A stretch of DNA of 64,000 nt from Microlunatus antarcticus (GTDB taxonomy: Bacteria > Actinomycetota > Actinomycetes > Propionibacteriales > Propionibacteriaceae), in the NCBI RefSeq assembly GCF_014193425.1, contig NZ_JACHZG010000001.1:1798001-1862000 (forward strand). Direction: 5' to 3'. The number at the start of each line of letters is the position of its first letter. Positions within the stretch are counted from its first letter, which is position 1. The translations under genes were made by a program, and so were the position numbers. This document shows positions 2,043 through 26,422 of the stretch, piece by piece. Below the pieces are notes generated by a model. It saw nothing but the letters and a program-made list of their open reading frames with translations. It was not told the DNA's origin and ran no database searches.

Positions 2043-2100
2043 GACCTCGCACCACCAGCGCTGACGCAACACCAGCACCAGCACCACCGTTCGACCAAGA

Positions 2101-2157
2101 AACGCTGACTCCCGGCAGAACCTGATCAAGATCAGGTGGCGGGAGTCAGCGTTTTTT
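2101..2157 (+). terminator. Intrinsic terminator hairpin ending the 1231-2042 pair
   Basis: A perfect 14-bp stem pairs AACGCTGACTCCCG (2101-2114) with its complement at 2140-2153, followed by a run of T (2152-2157). The loop holds a second small stem, ACCTGAT/ATCAGGT. The T-run is on the plus strand, so it ends the 1231-2042 transcript. Confidence 0.85.
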
Positions 2158-2275
2158 GTCGCCTGGGCCCGGGTGGGCCACCTCGGTTCGCGTCTTCAGA
2201 CCAGTGCGGGCGGGCGACGTACGGAAGGCCCGTACGGTTCGCCGATGCCGCCCATGGTCTGAAGACGCAGGCGAC
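2158..2275. repeat. Large nested hairpin between two convergent terminators
   Basis: Three nested inverted repeats share one axis: GTCGCCT (2158-2164) with AGGCGAC (2269-2275), a perfect 14-bp arm GCGTCTTCAGACCA (2190-2203) with its complement (2255-2268), and CGTACGG/CCGTACG (2218-2224 and 2230-2236). The left outer arm carries an unpaired 25-base insert. No open reading frame with gene-like features is present here. It could be a structured transcript, a third terminator or a remnant palindromic element; I cannot decide. Confidence 0.6.
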
Positions 2276-2301: not shown

Positions 2302-2357
2302 AGAAAACGCTGACCGCCGTCATCCCCCTTCAAGCTCGGGTGACGGGAGTCAGCGTT
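2302..2357 (-). terminator. Terminator hairpin ending the sulfate assimilation operon
   Basis: AACGCTGAC (2306-2314) pairs with GTCAGCGTT (2349-2357), and an inner imperfect stem joins CGTCATCCC with GGGTGACG. On the minus strand the stem is followed by TTTTCTG, which fits termination of the leftward operon whose last stop is at 2394. The stem word is the same as in the plus-strand terminator at 2101. Confidence 0.7.
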
Positions 2358-2393
2358 CTCCGCTGCGGGAGCCCGGGTGGGGGTGAGCGAGGG

Positions 2394-17342: not shown

Positions 17343-17408
17343 GTCTGCTCGATCTCGTGTCGTCTGCGCGCGTTCGAACCCGCGCAGACGACACGAACCC
17401 GAGCAGAC
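17343..17408. repeat. Long perfect palindrome in the 17278-17461 gap
   Basis: A 9-bp outer arm GTCTGCTCG (17343-17351) and a 15-bp inner arm CGTGTCGTCTGCGCG (17356-17370) pair perfectly with their complements at 17400-17408 and 17381-17395. The arms are separated by 4-base internal loops and an apical loop of ten bases. There is no T-run, so a simple intrinsic terminator is doubtful, although it does follow a gene end. Confidence 0.75.
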
Positions 17409-22335: not shown

Positions 22336-23109
22336 TCAGTTGATCCGCGACACCGCGAACGTCTCGGCCTGCCGGCCCGGTGCGAGTCCGGCCCGAAGGG
22401 CGTTGCCCTCGTTCCAGCCGCGCAGCATCTGCTCCAGCCCGTCGCCGAGGTGCCCGGTCTGCGACGTGTGCGCCTTCAGCGCGGCGACCTTGCGGTCGAA
22501 GCGGTCGGTGACGTCGACGACGTGCGAGCTCTCCGGGTGGGCCATCAGCCACAGCTCGACGACCTTCCACGGCTCGAGGCCCTCGTCGAGGAGCTCGGGC
22601 CAGGCGAAGGGGTTCTCCGACGCGGGGTAGACCGCGCGCACCGTCGCCTCGCCGGCGGCCAGGTGGTCGGGGTGCGACGCCTGCAGCCGCTGCAGCATGC
22701 GCTGCGGCGACTGGCACAGCACCCGGCGGGGGCGGACCTGGCGGAGGACGCGGACGATCTGGTGCTGGAGCTCCCAGGTCGGCTCCAGCCAGCCGTCGTG
22801 GAAGCCGTCGAGGAAGCGGACGTCGGTCACGCCGACGGCGGCGGAGGCGGCGCGCTGCTCCCGCTCGCGCAGCAGCGGCATCTCCGAGCGCGGGGTGTCG
22901 TCGAAGCCGCCCTGGTCGCCGCGTGTGCAGACGAGGAGGGTCACCTCGATGCCGGCGTCGACCCAGCCGGCCACCGTCCCGGCCGCGCCGAAGTCGGCGT
23001 CGTCGGGGTGGGCCGCCACCACCAGGGCGCGCTCCACCTCGCCGTCGGGGAGGGGCTCGGCCCACGCGAGGGGGTCGGGAGGTGTCGCGGGGCCTGCCTG
23101 GTCGGTCAC
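22336..23109 (-). CDS. PIG-L family N-acetyl-hydrolase (LmbE-like deacetylase)
   Basis: A 257-residue zinc deacetylase. The metal motif AHPDDADFGAAGT lies near residues 33-45 and the second-site HPDHLAAG near 144, both diagnostic of PIG-L/LmbE enzymes, which remove acetyl groups from N-acetylglucosamine-type substrates. Family members include the mycothiol enzymes MshB and Mca; the sequence here is not clearly either one. Its GTG start overlaps the FUSC gene stop by four bases, so the two are translated together. Confidence 0.9.
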   Translation of the reverse strand: MTDQAGPATPPDPLAWAEPLPDGEVERALVVAAHPDDADFGAAGTVAGWVDAGIEVTLLVCTRGDQGGFDDTPRSEMPLLREREQRAASAAVGVTDVRFLDGFHDGWLEPTWELQHQIVRVLRQVRPRRVLCQSPQRMLQRLQASHPDHLAAGEATVRAVYPASENPFAWPELLDEGLEPWKVVELWLMAHPESSHVVDVTDRFDRKVAALKAHTSQTGHLGDGLEQMLRGWNEGNALRAGLAPGRQAETFAVSRIN

Positions 23110-25436
23110 GCGCTCACCCTAGGTCGTCCCTCGGGGGCCGGGAGCCACCCGTGCAGCCGTGGTTCGGACTGCCGGGCGAGGTCCGTGGCCGGACCCAGGA
23201 GGGCGGGCTGCAGGCGGCGCAGGGCGTCGAGGTGGTCGCCGGTCCAGATCATCCGGACGGCGGTCGGGCTGGGCATGGCGGTGTCGACCGCGAGGTCGCG
23301 CCGCACGGCCTCGACGAGGCGCGCGTCGGAGGCCGCGTCCCGACGGGCCGGGGGCGGCGGCGGGGCCGCACCGGAGAGTGCCTGGCCGAGGCGGGCGTAC
23401 CAGCGCGCGACCACGTCGGCGTCGTGACCGAGCTCGCGGCCCGCCGCGGAACGGTCGCCGCCCAGCGTTCCGTCCTCCCGCTCCCAGAGCGCGAGCACGG
23501 CGTCGGCGGCCAGCCGCGGGGCGACGACACCGGTGACCAGGGCGGTGACGGTGGCGAGGTCGGACTGCTTGCGGCCGCGCTCGGCGAGGTACTCCCGGAA
23601 CGCGTCGTCCAACCGGCGCGAGGCGGCCGCGGCCCGCGTGGACTCGGGCACGGGTCGGGGCAGCGACGGCACCCCGCGCTCGCAGCGGTGGACGCCGTAG
23701 CGGACGGCCCGGGCGAGGTAGTCGCCCGTCGTCTCGTACGCCTCCCCGAGCGCCCGGCCCAGCGCCGAGGCCGCGCCGCGCGGCCAGAAGAGGACCCCGA
23801 AGACCAGGCTCACCGCGCAGCCGATCGCGATGTCCTCGATGCGTACGAGGCCGATGCGGTAGCCGACCGGTTGGATGATGTTGAAGAAGATCGTCAGCGT
23901 CAGCGTGAAGGCCGCCTGCCCCGCGGCGAACGAGATCGCGGCCGGCGCGAGCCCGGCGACGAGGATCGAGATCGGCAGCAGGATCCAGAGCACCGCCTGG
24001 TTCGTCCCGACGAGCGTGACGACCAGCCCGCCCACGACGATGCCGACGACCGTCCCGAGCACCCCGCGCAGGGCCGTCTGCCCGGTGCTCAGGGCGTTCG
24101 AGCGCAGCACCGAGAGCGTGCCGAGCACCACCCAGAAGGAGTGCTGCACGCCGCTGAGGTCGGCGACGAGGACGGCGGCGCCCAGCGCAAGTCCGCCGCG
24201 CAGGCTGTTGTGCAGCCAGACCGAGTGGCGGTCGAGGTGGGTCCGGGCGCGGTCGACCGCCGTGGCGAAGGCACCGCCGGTCCCGCCCGGATCGCGCCCG
24301 AGCAGTCGGCGCAGCCACGGACGCCGTTCGGCCTGGAGCGCGCGCTCCACGTTCCGGACGACCTCCAGCACCGCGAAGCCGATCTCCTGCGCGCGGAACG
24401 TCGGCTCGAGCGCGTCGACCAGGCCCGCGTCGAGGTCGTGGGACGCGCCCGGACCGCCGAGGGGGAGCCGCTCGGCGCCGGTCTCGAGGGCGTCGACGGC
24501 CGCGACCAGCGCGGCGATCGCGGTCTGCAGCCGGTCCTCCCCGGCGTCGAGCTCGGCCCGGGCCGCCCCCCGGCTCATCACGTCGAGCTCGTCCGCCGCC
24601 ACCGCGAGGGCGCCGGCCGCCGCGGTCTTCACGGCCAGGACGCGGTCGTCGACCCGGTGACCGGGCGCCACCGCCGGCGGCTGCTGCAGCACCGTCAGCA
24701 GCCAGCCGAGCTCGTCGACCAGCCGGACCAGGATCCGCGACGAGGTGCCGAGGTCGGTCGGGCGGTTGGTGGTGGCGTAGAACGCGTCCCGCAGCTCGCC
24801 GTACGCGGTCGTCAGCCGGTGCGTCACCGCGTCGCGCTCCGCCGGGCCCAGCTCGCCGTGGGCGACGCGACGGTCGGCGACGAGACGTTCGGCGAGGAGC
24901 CGGCAGGTCCGGGCGGAGGGCGCGCGCAGGGGGCTCCGCGGCGGCGCCGGCCACCAGAAGGCGACGGCGAAGGCCGCCACGGCCGAGGCCAGGAGCCAGC
25001 CGGCCATCCGGTCCGGGATCGCGCCCAGCGGCGCCGGCGTGGCCACCGGCAGGACGAAGGCGAGCAGCAGGGCGGTCGAGGCTCCCGCCAGCTCGGAGCT
25101 GACCACGCCGACGAAGAGGACCGCGAAGCCGACGACGGCCATCGTCACCGCCGCCAGCACCGGCTGGCGCGACACGACCGTGGCGAGAGCCACGAGCAGG
25201 GCGCCGAGCACGGCCAGCCAGGCGACGCCCTGGACGCGTTCCGCGCGGGAGCCGTTCAGGTCGACCAGCAGGAGCAGGGCGAACGACCCGAACGCGGCGA
25301 AGGTCGCGACGTCGGCGTTCTGCAGGACGCGGGCGCCGAAGGCGAAGAGCAGCGGCATGACGATCGCCACCCGCCCGGCCCGCCGCAGCGCGCGCAGACC
25401 CGGGTCGTGCCGGCGCAGCCAGGACAGCGGGCTCAT
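23106..25436 (-). CDS. FUSC family protein (aromatic acid exporter-like)
   Basis: A 776-residue membrane protein with two blocks of about six hydrophobic segments each (roughly residues 10-170 and 395-540), separated by a cytosolic domain and followed by a long cytosolic tail, the normal FUSC layout. The second block contains HSFWVVLGTLSVLRSNALST, the typical FUSC signature. Family members are linked to efflux of aromatic acids or other inhibitors. The ATG at 25436 gives a first segment right after a short basic region. It heads a pair with the PIG-L deacetylase. An array of repeated sites lies 82-238 bp upstream of its start. Confidence 0.88.
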   Translation of the reverse strand: MSPLSWLRRHDPGLRALRRAGRVAIVMPLLFAFGARVLQNADVATFAAFGSFALLLLVDLNGSRAERVQGVAWLAVLGALLVALATVVSRQPVLAAVTMAVVGFAVLFVGVVSSELAGASTALLLAFVLPVATPAPLGAIPDRMAGWLLASAVAAFAVAFWWPAPPRSPLRAPSARTCRLLAERLVADRRVAHGELGPAERDAVTHRLTTAYGELRDAFYATTNRPTDLGTSSRILVRLVDELGWLLTVLQQPPAVAPGHRVDDRVLAVKTAAAGALAVAADELDVMSRGAARAELDAGEDRLQTAIAALVAAVDALETGAERLPLGGPGASHDLDAGLVDALEPTFRAQEIGFAVLEVVRNVERALQAERRPWLRRLLGRDPGGTGGAFATAVDRARTHLDRHSVWLHNSLRGGLALGAAVLVADLSGVQHSFWVVLGTLSVLRSNALSTGQTALRGVLGTVVGIVVGGLVVTLVGTNQAVLWILLPISILVAGLAPAAISFAAGQAAFTLTLTIFFNIIQPVGYRIGLVRIEDIAIGCAVSLVFGVLFWPRGAASALGRALGEAYETTGDYLARAVRYGVHRCERGVPSLPRPVPESTRAAAASRRLDDAFREYLAERGRKQSDLATVTALVTGVVAPRLAADAVLALWEREDGTLGGDRSAAGRELGHDADVVARWYARLGQALSGAAPPPPPARRDAASDARLVEAVRRDLAVDTAMPSPTAVRMIWTGDHLDALRRLQPALLGPATDLARQSEPRLHGWLPAPEGRPRVSA

Positions 25437-25517: not shown

Positions 25518-25674
25518 CGGCACATCCTGCCCAAGCCGGCACGCCCTGCTTGTTTCGGTACCCCTGGCTCATGACGGCACACCCTGCTTGCTCCGGCATC
25601 CCAAGCTAACAACGGCACACCCTGCAGGGTGTGCCGCCGCGAGGAGGGTGTGCCGCGGAGAGCAGGGTGTGCCG
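25518..25674. repeat. Array of nine 13-bp sites on an exact 19-bp register, six direct then three inverted
   Basis: The consensus CGGCACACCCTGC starts at 25518, 25537, 25556, 25575, 25594 and 25613, each 19 bp apart; the copies at 25556 and 25594 carry four mismatches. The complement starts at 25624, 25643 and 25662, again 19 bp apart. The copies at 25613 and 25624 merge into a perfect 24-bp palindrome around CTGCAG. Six-base spacers vary. The array fills the 266-bp gap between the SDR stop at 25703 and the FUSC start at 25436, upstream of FUSC and downstream of the SDR. A multi-site operator is possible. Confidence 0.85.
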
Positions 25675-25702: not shown

Positions 25703-26422
25703 TCAGGTCTGCGAGACCGGGCTGATCACCAGCTCGTCGATGCGGACGTGGGCGGGGGAGTCGAGGACGAACAGGACCGCGCGCGCGACGTCGTCGGCGG
25801 TGAGCATCACCGCGCGGGCTTCGGCCCCCGGGACCTGCGGCCGCATCCGCAGGAAGTCGGTGTCCACGTCGCCCGGGCAGAGGTGGCAGGCGCGGACGCC
25901 GTACGAGGCCTCCTGCGCGTTGAGCGTCTGGCACACGGCGGTGAGCGCGGTCTTGCTGGCCGAGTAGGCGACGCCGGCGCCGGGGGAGAAGCGCCAGCCC
26001 GCGTACGACGACACCACGACCACCTGCCCACCGGCCTCGCGCAGGTCGGGCAGCGCGGCGTCGACGACGTTGACCACGCCGGAGAGGTTCGTGGTGACGA
26101 CGTCGGCGAAGCCGGTCACCGACTGGTCGGCCCAGGTCCGCTGCGGACTGTTGAGGCCGGCGGCGAGGACGAGGTCGTCGACCCGGCCCCAGCGGTCGGT
26201 GATCCCGGCGTGCGCCCCGGCGACCGCGGACGGGTCGCCGACCTCGAGCGGCACCACGAACGACTCCCCGCCGGCCTGCTCGACCAGCGCCGCCGTCTCC
26301 GCGAGGGCGTCCTCGCGACGTCCGCTCAGCGCGACGCGGCGGCCACCCTGTGCGGCCGCGACGGCGGCGGCTCGGCCCATGCCGCTCCCGGCGCCGGTGA
26401 CCCAGAGCACGCGGCCGCTCAC
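25703..26422 (-). CDS. Short-chain dehydrogenase/reductase (classical SDR)
   Basis: A 239-residue SDR. Cofactor-binding TGAGSGMGRAAAV lies near residues 9-21, AAGLNS near 86 replaces the usual NNAG, the catalytic Ser lies in VVVSSYAG near 138, and the YSASK motif near 152-156 supplies Tyr and Lys. It ends SPVSQT. Arg-rich residues after the second strand (LSGRRED) suggest NADP(H). Substrate not predictable. Its GTG start overlaps the stop of the neighbouring SDR by four bases; the two and the upstream cyclase-like gene form an operon. Confidence 0.88.
   Translation of the reverse strand: MSGRVLWVTGAGSGMGRAAAVAAAQGGRRVALSGRREDALAETAALVEQAGGESFVVPLEVGDPSAVAGAHAGITDRWGRVDDLVLAAGLNSPQRTWADQSVTGFADVVTTNLSGVVNVVDAALPDLREAGGQVVVVSSYAGWRFSPGAGVAYSASKTALTAVCQTLNAQEASYGVRACHLCPGDVDTDFLRMRPQVPGAEARAVMLTADDVARAVLFVLDSPAHVRIDELVISPVSQT

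Follow-up and report, generated by a model that had tools for sequence, protein, structure and literature searches.

Introduction

Among the described systems, the one closest in layout to the DNA studied here is that of the RAYT genes, which are always flanked by two REP sequences while further repeats are scattered between genes, and in which the gene tree and the repeat tree correspond; RAYT proteins carry Pfam01797 (PMC2817692, available part of the text). The same part of that text describes BIMEs, whose REPs alternate in orientation, are extragenic and clustered, and have a GT(A/G)G head (PMC2817692). In the AbiE type IV toxin-antitoxin system, AbiEi binds palindromes, the inverted repeats IR1 and IR2, in its own promoter (PMC11062541, available part). 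The MTES_1575 restriction endonuclease (REase) family has been assigned the Vsr fold; the available part of that source gives no repeat association, and the string "palindrom" is absent from it (PMC3710099).

The DNA analysed here, which we call the window, is a stretch of 64,000 nucleotides from Microlunatus antarcticus, and it holds a palindromic array that resembles each of these systems in part. As in REP/RAYT, a resident gene (L011) is bracketed by palindromic repeats that are also dispersed between genes, in our case as 12 solo arrays. The difference is that here the protein combines an AbiEi winged helix with a PD-(D/E)XK-like part, that actinobacteria are the hosts and that the repeats often form arrays of short units (in this genome 13 bp long, at a 19-bp pitch). 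Alternating, extragenic and clustered repeats are shared with BIMEs, but the strict short pitch and the cognate protein are not. The likeness to AbiE lies in the N-terminal match and in the palindromes, whereas the C-terminal nuclease-like part and the repeats on both sides of the gene and elsewhere are additional. The likeness to the Vsr/MTES_1575/DUF559 proteins lies in C-terminal family matches, a conserved acidic motif and a weak match to 3hrl. In the open-licence literature we found no description of a link between AbiEi-REase genes and repeats, which may nevertheless be in print elsewhere.

Results

The array at 25518-25674

The array and its neighbours comprise the following features.

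25518..25674, no strand: family-1 palindromic array, a solo copy, with six plus units and three minus units at a 19-bp pitch
25613..25636, no strand: central perfect 24-bp palindrome, with 15 centres genome-wide at up to two mismatches
25518..25625, plus strand: direct arm of six 13-bp slots, the third and fifth degenerate
25624..25674, minus strand: inverted arm of three 13-bp units
25703..26422, minus strand: SDR gene (adh_short match), its stop 28 bp before the array
23106..25436, minus strand: FUSC gene (FUSC_2 match) from a candidate ATG at 25436, a neighbour and no shown target

The nine 13-bp slots begin at 25518, 25537, 25556, 25575, 25594 and 25613 on the plus strand and at 25624, 25643 and 25662 on the minus strand, with a pitch of exactly 19 bp within each arm. 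An earlier note on this DNA had described nine sites on a strict 19-bp pitch with a switch in orientation and a 24-bp palindrome, which these coordinates bear out. Its count of six direct and three inverted copies holds for the slots. CGGCACACCCTGC is matched with at most one mismatch in seven of the nine, and two of the six direct slots (25556 and 25594) are degenerate, matching it at 9 of 13 positions only. The note had also placed the array upstream of FUSC and past the SDR stop. This holds for the candidate FUSC ATG, read from the sequence, from which the array lies 82-238 bp upstream, but the longest FUSC frame begins at 25523, within the array. What that first view lacked is that the array belongs to a family of 15 copies, members of which lie on both sides of a nuclease-like gene at another place in the genome.

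Family 1 across the genome

In the organism's own genome (G000; 4.37 Mb in 18 contigs), the 24-mer with up to two mismatches gave 15 palindrome centres and the reversed-pattern control 0, and a two-unit pattern with three mismatches allowed occurred at 26+26 places, again with a reversed-pattern control of 0, which rules out chance as the source of the layout. Searched singly at one mismatch, the 13-mer stands out less clearly, at 101 places vs 35 in the control. The palindrome was absent at the same tolerance from 95 other genomes, 19 of them of the same genus, and the two-unit pattern was found in none of 19 other genomes of the genus; among the genomes searched, family 1 is known from one species only. 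Twelve of the 15 centres are solo, usually just past a stop codon, and the other three lie at the L011 gene.

The array statistics take in 14 of the 15 centres, C1:489876 being left out. The 14 aligned arrays share one plan of direct arm, palindrome and inverted arm at a 19-bp pitch with few slips. At core positions 2-9, between 86 and 93 of the 94 units carry the conserved base, a conservation somewhat inflated by the acceptance of units at 8 or more of 13 matches, and spacer positions 1, 2 and 4 favour T, C and C (52, 48 and 44 of 66) while positions 3, 5 and 6 vary widely. Between left and right arms there was no compensatory excess: in the first unit pair, 152 of 182 cells were paired vs 152.1 by permutation, and the spacers were slightly below; two-sided variants number 11, of which 8 are identical changes, and one-sided variants 80. 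Because left/right pairing stays at the permutation level, it seems to be the unit sequence rather than the pairing that is conserved. Units at the same position are more alike between arrays than units at different positions (0.821 vs 0.794, 0 of 1000 permutations), and so are the spacers (0.463 vs 0.423, P 0.002), a position-by-position likeness that is as expected if whole elements were copied. A 38-bp duplication occurs among the arrays at C1:490 kb.

Local slippage as the main origin was rejected, since the similarity among units is no higher within an array (0.796) than across arrays (0.799). With the conserved core and the partly variable spacer, this agrees with the proposal of the earlier note that the units resemble recognition sites rather than products of slippage. 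As to two further ideas raised there, no replication-type context was seen that would suit iterons, and, with regard to a decayed repeat, centre units match the consensus at 0.989. A phage or plasmid origin was also rejected, there being no match in phage or plasmid collections and no 20-bp core in viral contigs. The idea of a widespread repeat was dropped as well: in the species-genome collection, from which records close to the own genome may have been left out, the 20-bp core matched two stretches only, each a single palindrome without pitch as judged by eye. A structured RNA was rejected on the lack of both a compensatory excess and an Rfam match at gathering score (best MIR898, 27.8 bits vs 75).

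The bracketed gene and its protein family

Three family-1 centres bracket, on both sides, the gene at L011:4545-5576 (about 490.0-491.1 kb on contig C1 of G000), whose neighbours we read as Nudix and XPB-like genes. In the related genome G017 the same neighbours lie 73 bp apart with no gene between them, and G003 has other DNA there. The N-terminus of the L011 protein matches AbiEi_4 (E 2.3e-5, 24.9 bits against a Pfam cut-off of 25), and the protein also matches PADLOC AbiEi models; its C-terminus has no Pfam match, and none of the six DUF559 places in its own genome is this gene. An alignment was made of 50 chosen proteins, unclear frames omitted. In it, E236, D268 and E279 are invariant in 50/50 while the basic residue varies, the proteins of L110 and L120 carrying H near the expected lysine position by our reading. 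Pfam assigned AbiEi_4 to 25 of the 50, MTES_1575 REase to 9 and DUF559 to 7, and PADLOC found AbiEi in up to 42 at E 0.01. The closest solved relative is the endonuclease-like 3hrl, a weak match (E 0.0088), and other PDB sequence matches are weak only. Because of the family matches of the homologues (9 + 7 of 50) and the invariant acidic residues, we take the C-terminus to be nuclease-like: to judge from its sequence, the L011 protein has two domains, an N-terminal winged helix of AbiEi type and a C-terminal part that can be aligned with PD-(D/E)XK nuclease-like homologues. In the records seen, AbiEi/DUF559-like genes are annotated as antitoxins or hypothetical proteins. At four annotated loci no neighbour bears an AbiEii annotation, although hypothetical proteins are among the neighbours and the gene table of the plasmid has gaps.

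A second repeat family, TGACCACTGGTCAC, also brackets a homologous gene, in G000 (L110) and in G003 (L120). Its 14-mer with one mismatch occurred at 14+17 places in G000 (control 0+1), at 15+16 in G003, where the reversed control of 7+7 is not clean, at 5+5 in G017 (control 0+1), at 0 in G018 and at 0+1 in G011 (control 0+1).

Repeats on the flanks of homologous genes

A profile of the L011, L110 and L120 proteins matched 141 places in 20 genomes of the genus, some of which are pieces of one gene. For 62 of these genes, from 14 species, the two 500-bp flanks were compared without gaps, a score above 23 counting as a match, and the controls were 300 random 1-kb segments and 300 swapped flanks. 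The tested set comprised all genes in G000 (13) and in G003, G017 and G018 (7 each), 6/7 in G011, 3/7 in G010 and 19 others taken by E-value; the genomes G001 (with L201 left out), G005, G008, G014, G015 and G016 were passed over. Matching repeats were found on both flanks of 50/62 genes vs 6/600 controls, and 31/62 genes score above every control. The 17 flank pairs that were read are mostly palindromic elements, which differ from gene to gene and in many cases have a 17-23-bp pitch.

The arrangement is also seen outside the genus. In 13 genomes of another genus and family, 99 places were found, 30 made loci and 28 were tested, two being too short; 22/28 pass vs 5/300 swapped flanks, and no gene scores above 395, the top control value, which presumably comes from two homologous flanks brought together by the swap. 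In annotated records, by score alone and with no controls of their own, 2/3 genes of Tsukamurella and 1/1 of Collinsella are flanked. The threshold was missed by 12/62 and 6/28 genes and by L302 of Tsukamurella. At L303 of Collinsella aerofaciens, at least four palindromes before the gene and two after it were seen by eye.

Specificity, dispersal and turnover

Specificity was compared among the 45 flanked genes of the protein alignment, 45/50 of which pass a slightly different flank test. Repeat similarity exceeded 18 in 5/5 pairs at 65% protein identity or more, 5/33 at 55-65%, 3/182 at 45-55%, 1/113 at 35-45% and 1/657 below 35%, and over all 990 pairs protein and repeat similarity are weakly correlated (Spearman 0.13). 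The repeats of two near homologues of L011, L174 (58%) and L181 (62%), are similar at their centre, which is of the CCCTGCAGGG type.

Other families are dispersed as well. The repeat shared by L162, L173 and L180 (up to two mismatches) has 43 half-sites in G017, 8 in G000, 7 in G003, 0 in G018 and 1 in G011, counts that include the gene-flanking copies, with a reversed control of 0. For the L163 repeat, G000 contains four copies, two of which lie apart from the gene. Within 400 kb sampled from G107, three gene repeats recur: that of L235 at three places and one single match, that of L251 at three and that of L227 at one, with controls of 0; the L235 places have at least two units each and, at two of them, direct and inverted arms at a 30-31-bp pitch. 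The Collinsella element occurs at 27 places in one 0.9-Mb record, the query's own included. For several families, scans of the DNA fetched gave no further copy.

The positions also turn over between species. Of 13 loci, 11 allowed a comparison, and at these the family-1 array is absent in G003 and G017, with only one flank aligned at L019. The matching slots of the relatives hold plain hairpins in some cases, as judged by eye, and elements of other families at two slots of G017 (L105, L109). At the ilvC locus, by our reading, a gene with its own repeats is present in G003 and G017 and not in G000, where the slot (L306:8316-8425) is 109 bp long and contains a palindrome similar to that of the L170 gene, with TTTT after it. 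No target-site duplication was seen at the compared loci, where the intergenic DNA is too diverged to show one. A repeat with the core GCCCTTCGAC was seen in two other species (L079, L100, L106), in L106 in the longer form GCCCTTCGACAGGCTCAGGG, with no gene link here.

Placement at gene ends and hairpins

Solo copies of family 1 lie no more than about 90 bp from a stop codon by our reading. Twelve solo arrays fall into 7 convergent, 5 tandem and 0 divergent gene pairs by script and 8 + 4 by hand, L012 being tandem by script and convergent by hand reading. One of the arrays, L020:4420-4538, sits between ftsQ-like and ftsZ-like genes, directly after ftsQ. Over several families, 46 solo elements gave 25 convergent, 18 tandem and 3 divergent pairs vs 68, 190 and 55 among 313 background pairs, whose orientation comes from a crude GC3 gene caller run on the 64-kb window and G003 (binomial 1.4e-6 for the convergent excess and 0.03 for the few divergent). 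For the L162 family, this count takes in 12 loci and the window and omits gene-flanking sites, one pair's partner arm and two single half-sites. The seven solo elements of G107 have no convergent bias (2 convergent, 3 tandem, 2 divergent).

Folded as single strands, six arrays were far stronger than their shuffles (z -7 to -9). At the focal array, the terminator scan found no stem-loop with a T-run despite the strong hairpin, and the promoter scan found nothing nearby, which has little weight because none was expected by that scan either. Further solo elements lie elsewhere in the window.

2100..2157, no strand: L162-family solo element with a strong hairpin ending in a T-run, absent from the terminator-scan list
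2191..2267, no strand: L166-family solo element (a third family) with a strong hairpin
2304..2361, no strand: second L162-family solo element by sequence; the folded stretch 2325-2390 lost the left arm and was no better than shuffles
17343..17408, no strand: probable L164-family solo element, a nested palindrome with a weaker match

The region 2100-2361, across which the terminator scan listed nothing, thus holds three solo elements of two other nuclease-linked families in one intergenic region, convergent by script.

A DnaA-box-like motif before the genes

A motif of the GTTGTCCACAG type, resembling a DnaA box, lies near the start of most AbiEi-REase genes tested (L011, L162-L251). Upstream windows were available for 85 genes: 57 from the set of 62, 24 from the set of 30 and 4 on plasmids. 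The remaining genes lacked an ORF, had one that was over-long or lay in a short locus. The sequence YYRTCCACA, which we take to be a form of the DnaA-box consensus, occurred in 68/85 upstream windows, 1/85 downstream windows and 34/2000 random windows, and the strict form TGTCCACA in 31/85 upstream windows vs 8/824 windows upstream of other ORFs. The coding strand carries 64 of 80 sites; a G comes next in 75 of the 80, and the distance to the start of the longest frame is 58-62 bases in 20. In a reading of oriC boxes from contig ends, the DnaA motif was found in 1/17 stretches, with two boxes after it.

Discussion

The repeats described here are associated with AbiEi-REase genes, specific to them and, in several families, dispersed beyond them. 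We consider it probable that the focal array is a copy, without the gene, of L011's palindromic element, which has spread in a REP/RAYT-like way with, or by the action of, its cognate nuclease and has been kept as a terminator-like element at 3' ends. Binding, cutting, copying and termination by the gene/element pairs are what we infer. The L011 protein would bind the 13-15-bp units, head-to-tail along the arms and head-to-head at the centre, and would nick or cut at the palindrome; replication or repair would then place copies of the element at further 3' intergenic sites, where its hairpin may be tolerated or may be useful as a bidirectional terminator. Since AbiEi binds palindromes, such binding by L011-type proteins is plausible, and, to judge from the DnaA-box-like motif close to the start of the gene, expression may be tied to replication.

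The alternative that fares best is that the AbiEi-like protein binds palindromes at its own gene for autoregulation and that the dispersed arrays are extra regulatory sites of a regulon, with no spreading by the protein. The binding of IR1 and IR2 by AbiEi in its own promoter (PMC11062541, available part) is a precedent, and the AbiEi-type N-terminus was found in 25/50 proteins by Pfam and in up to 42/50 by PADLOC. However, the repeats also lie downstream of the gene, the solo copies favour convergent ends rather than promoters, and E236, D268 and E279 of the C-terminus, kept in 50/50, would be left unexplained, so that we regard autoregulation as unlikely.

Solo copies within about 90 bp of a stop and the strong folding of six arrays (z -7 to -9) would also be expected of bidirectional terminators multiplied by ordinary recombination, in which case the nuclease gene would be a passenger that prefers a site between two of them. 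The slots of the relatives, seen by eye to hold ordinary hairpins or elements of other families, and the T-run that ends 2100-2157 are in line with this. But each gene has its own repeat, common to close homologues, and a passenger would not match its flanks; moreover, the scan listed nothing at the focal array or across 2100-2361. We hold this explanation to be quite improbable.

In a homing-like process, the nuclease would cut element-free targets and repair would copy the element in, with or without the gene. The gene at ilvC in G003 and G017 but not in G000, and the site between the Nudix and XPB-like genes that is occupied in G000 but not in G017, are in line with this. No common target sequence was seen at the empty sites that were read, however, and many different 3' sites are used, which makes homing very improbable. 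An operator specific to FUSC/PIG-L, as the earlier note had considered, can practically be dismissed although the array lies 82-238 bp upstream of FUSC, as only one of the 15 centres is beside FUSC, the others adjoin other genes (ftsQ/ftsZ, gpm/phoU and an RsmE-like gene among them, by our reading of translations) and never FUSC, so that the role fails by the test that the note itself had set; the pitch, too, slips in a few arrays.

The reading that we prefer, the spreading of a palindromic element with its cognate nuclease, invites comparison with REP/RAYT. The Y1 transposase PF01797 was found nowhere in the own genome and was present in 5/14 control genomes. Since PF01797 is missing there and the enzyme is unrelated, the system would work like REP/RAYT without belonging to it; thus, we hold the gene-plus-repeat system to be an analogue of REP/RAYT in its logic, not a member, and new in its parts. 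That the arrangement of an AbiEi-nuclease gene with its own repeat recurs, with other repeats, in other sampled actinobacteria suggests a self-spreading repeat system of an undescribed kind. For a wider claim we see about an even chance: that there is a class of self-spreading palindromic elements, perhaps throughout Actinomycetota, in which each family is driven by an AbiEi-PD-(D/E)XK protein of its own, specific to the repeat of that family alone, in which the DnaA-box-like site may tie activity to replication, and in which the solo copies take the place of terminators at 3' ends and act as such, with families competing for the same slots across species.

AbiEi/DUF559-like genes are common in the sampled actinobacteria, and a private dispersed palindrome gives each of them a testable role. 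The link between gene and repeat provides many natural pairs of protein and DNA as candidates for specific recognition, and would explain the origin of many species-specific repeats. It would also mean that the way of life of REP/RAYT evolved twice, the second time with an enzyme of unrelated kind.
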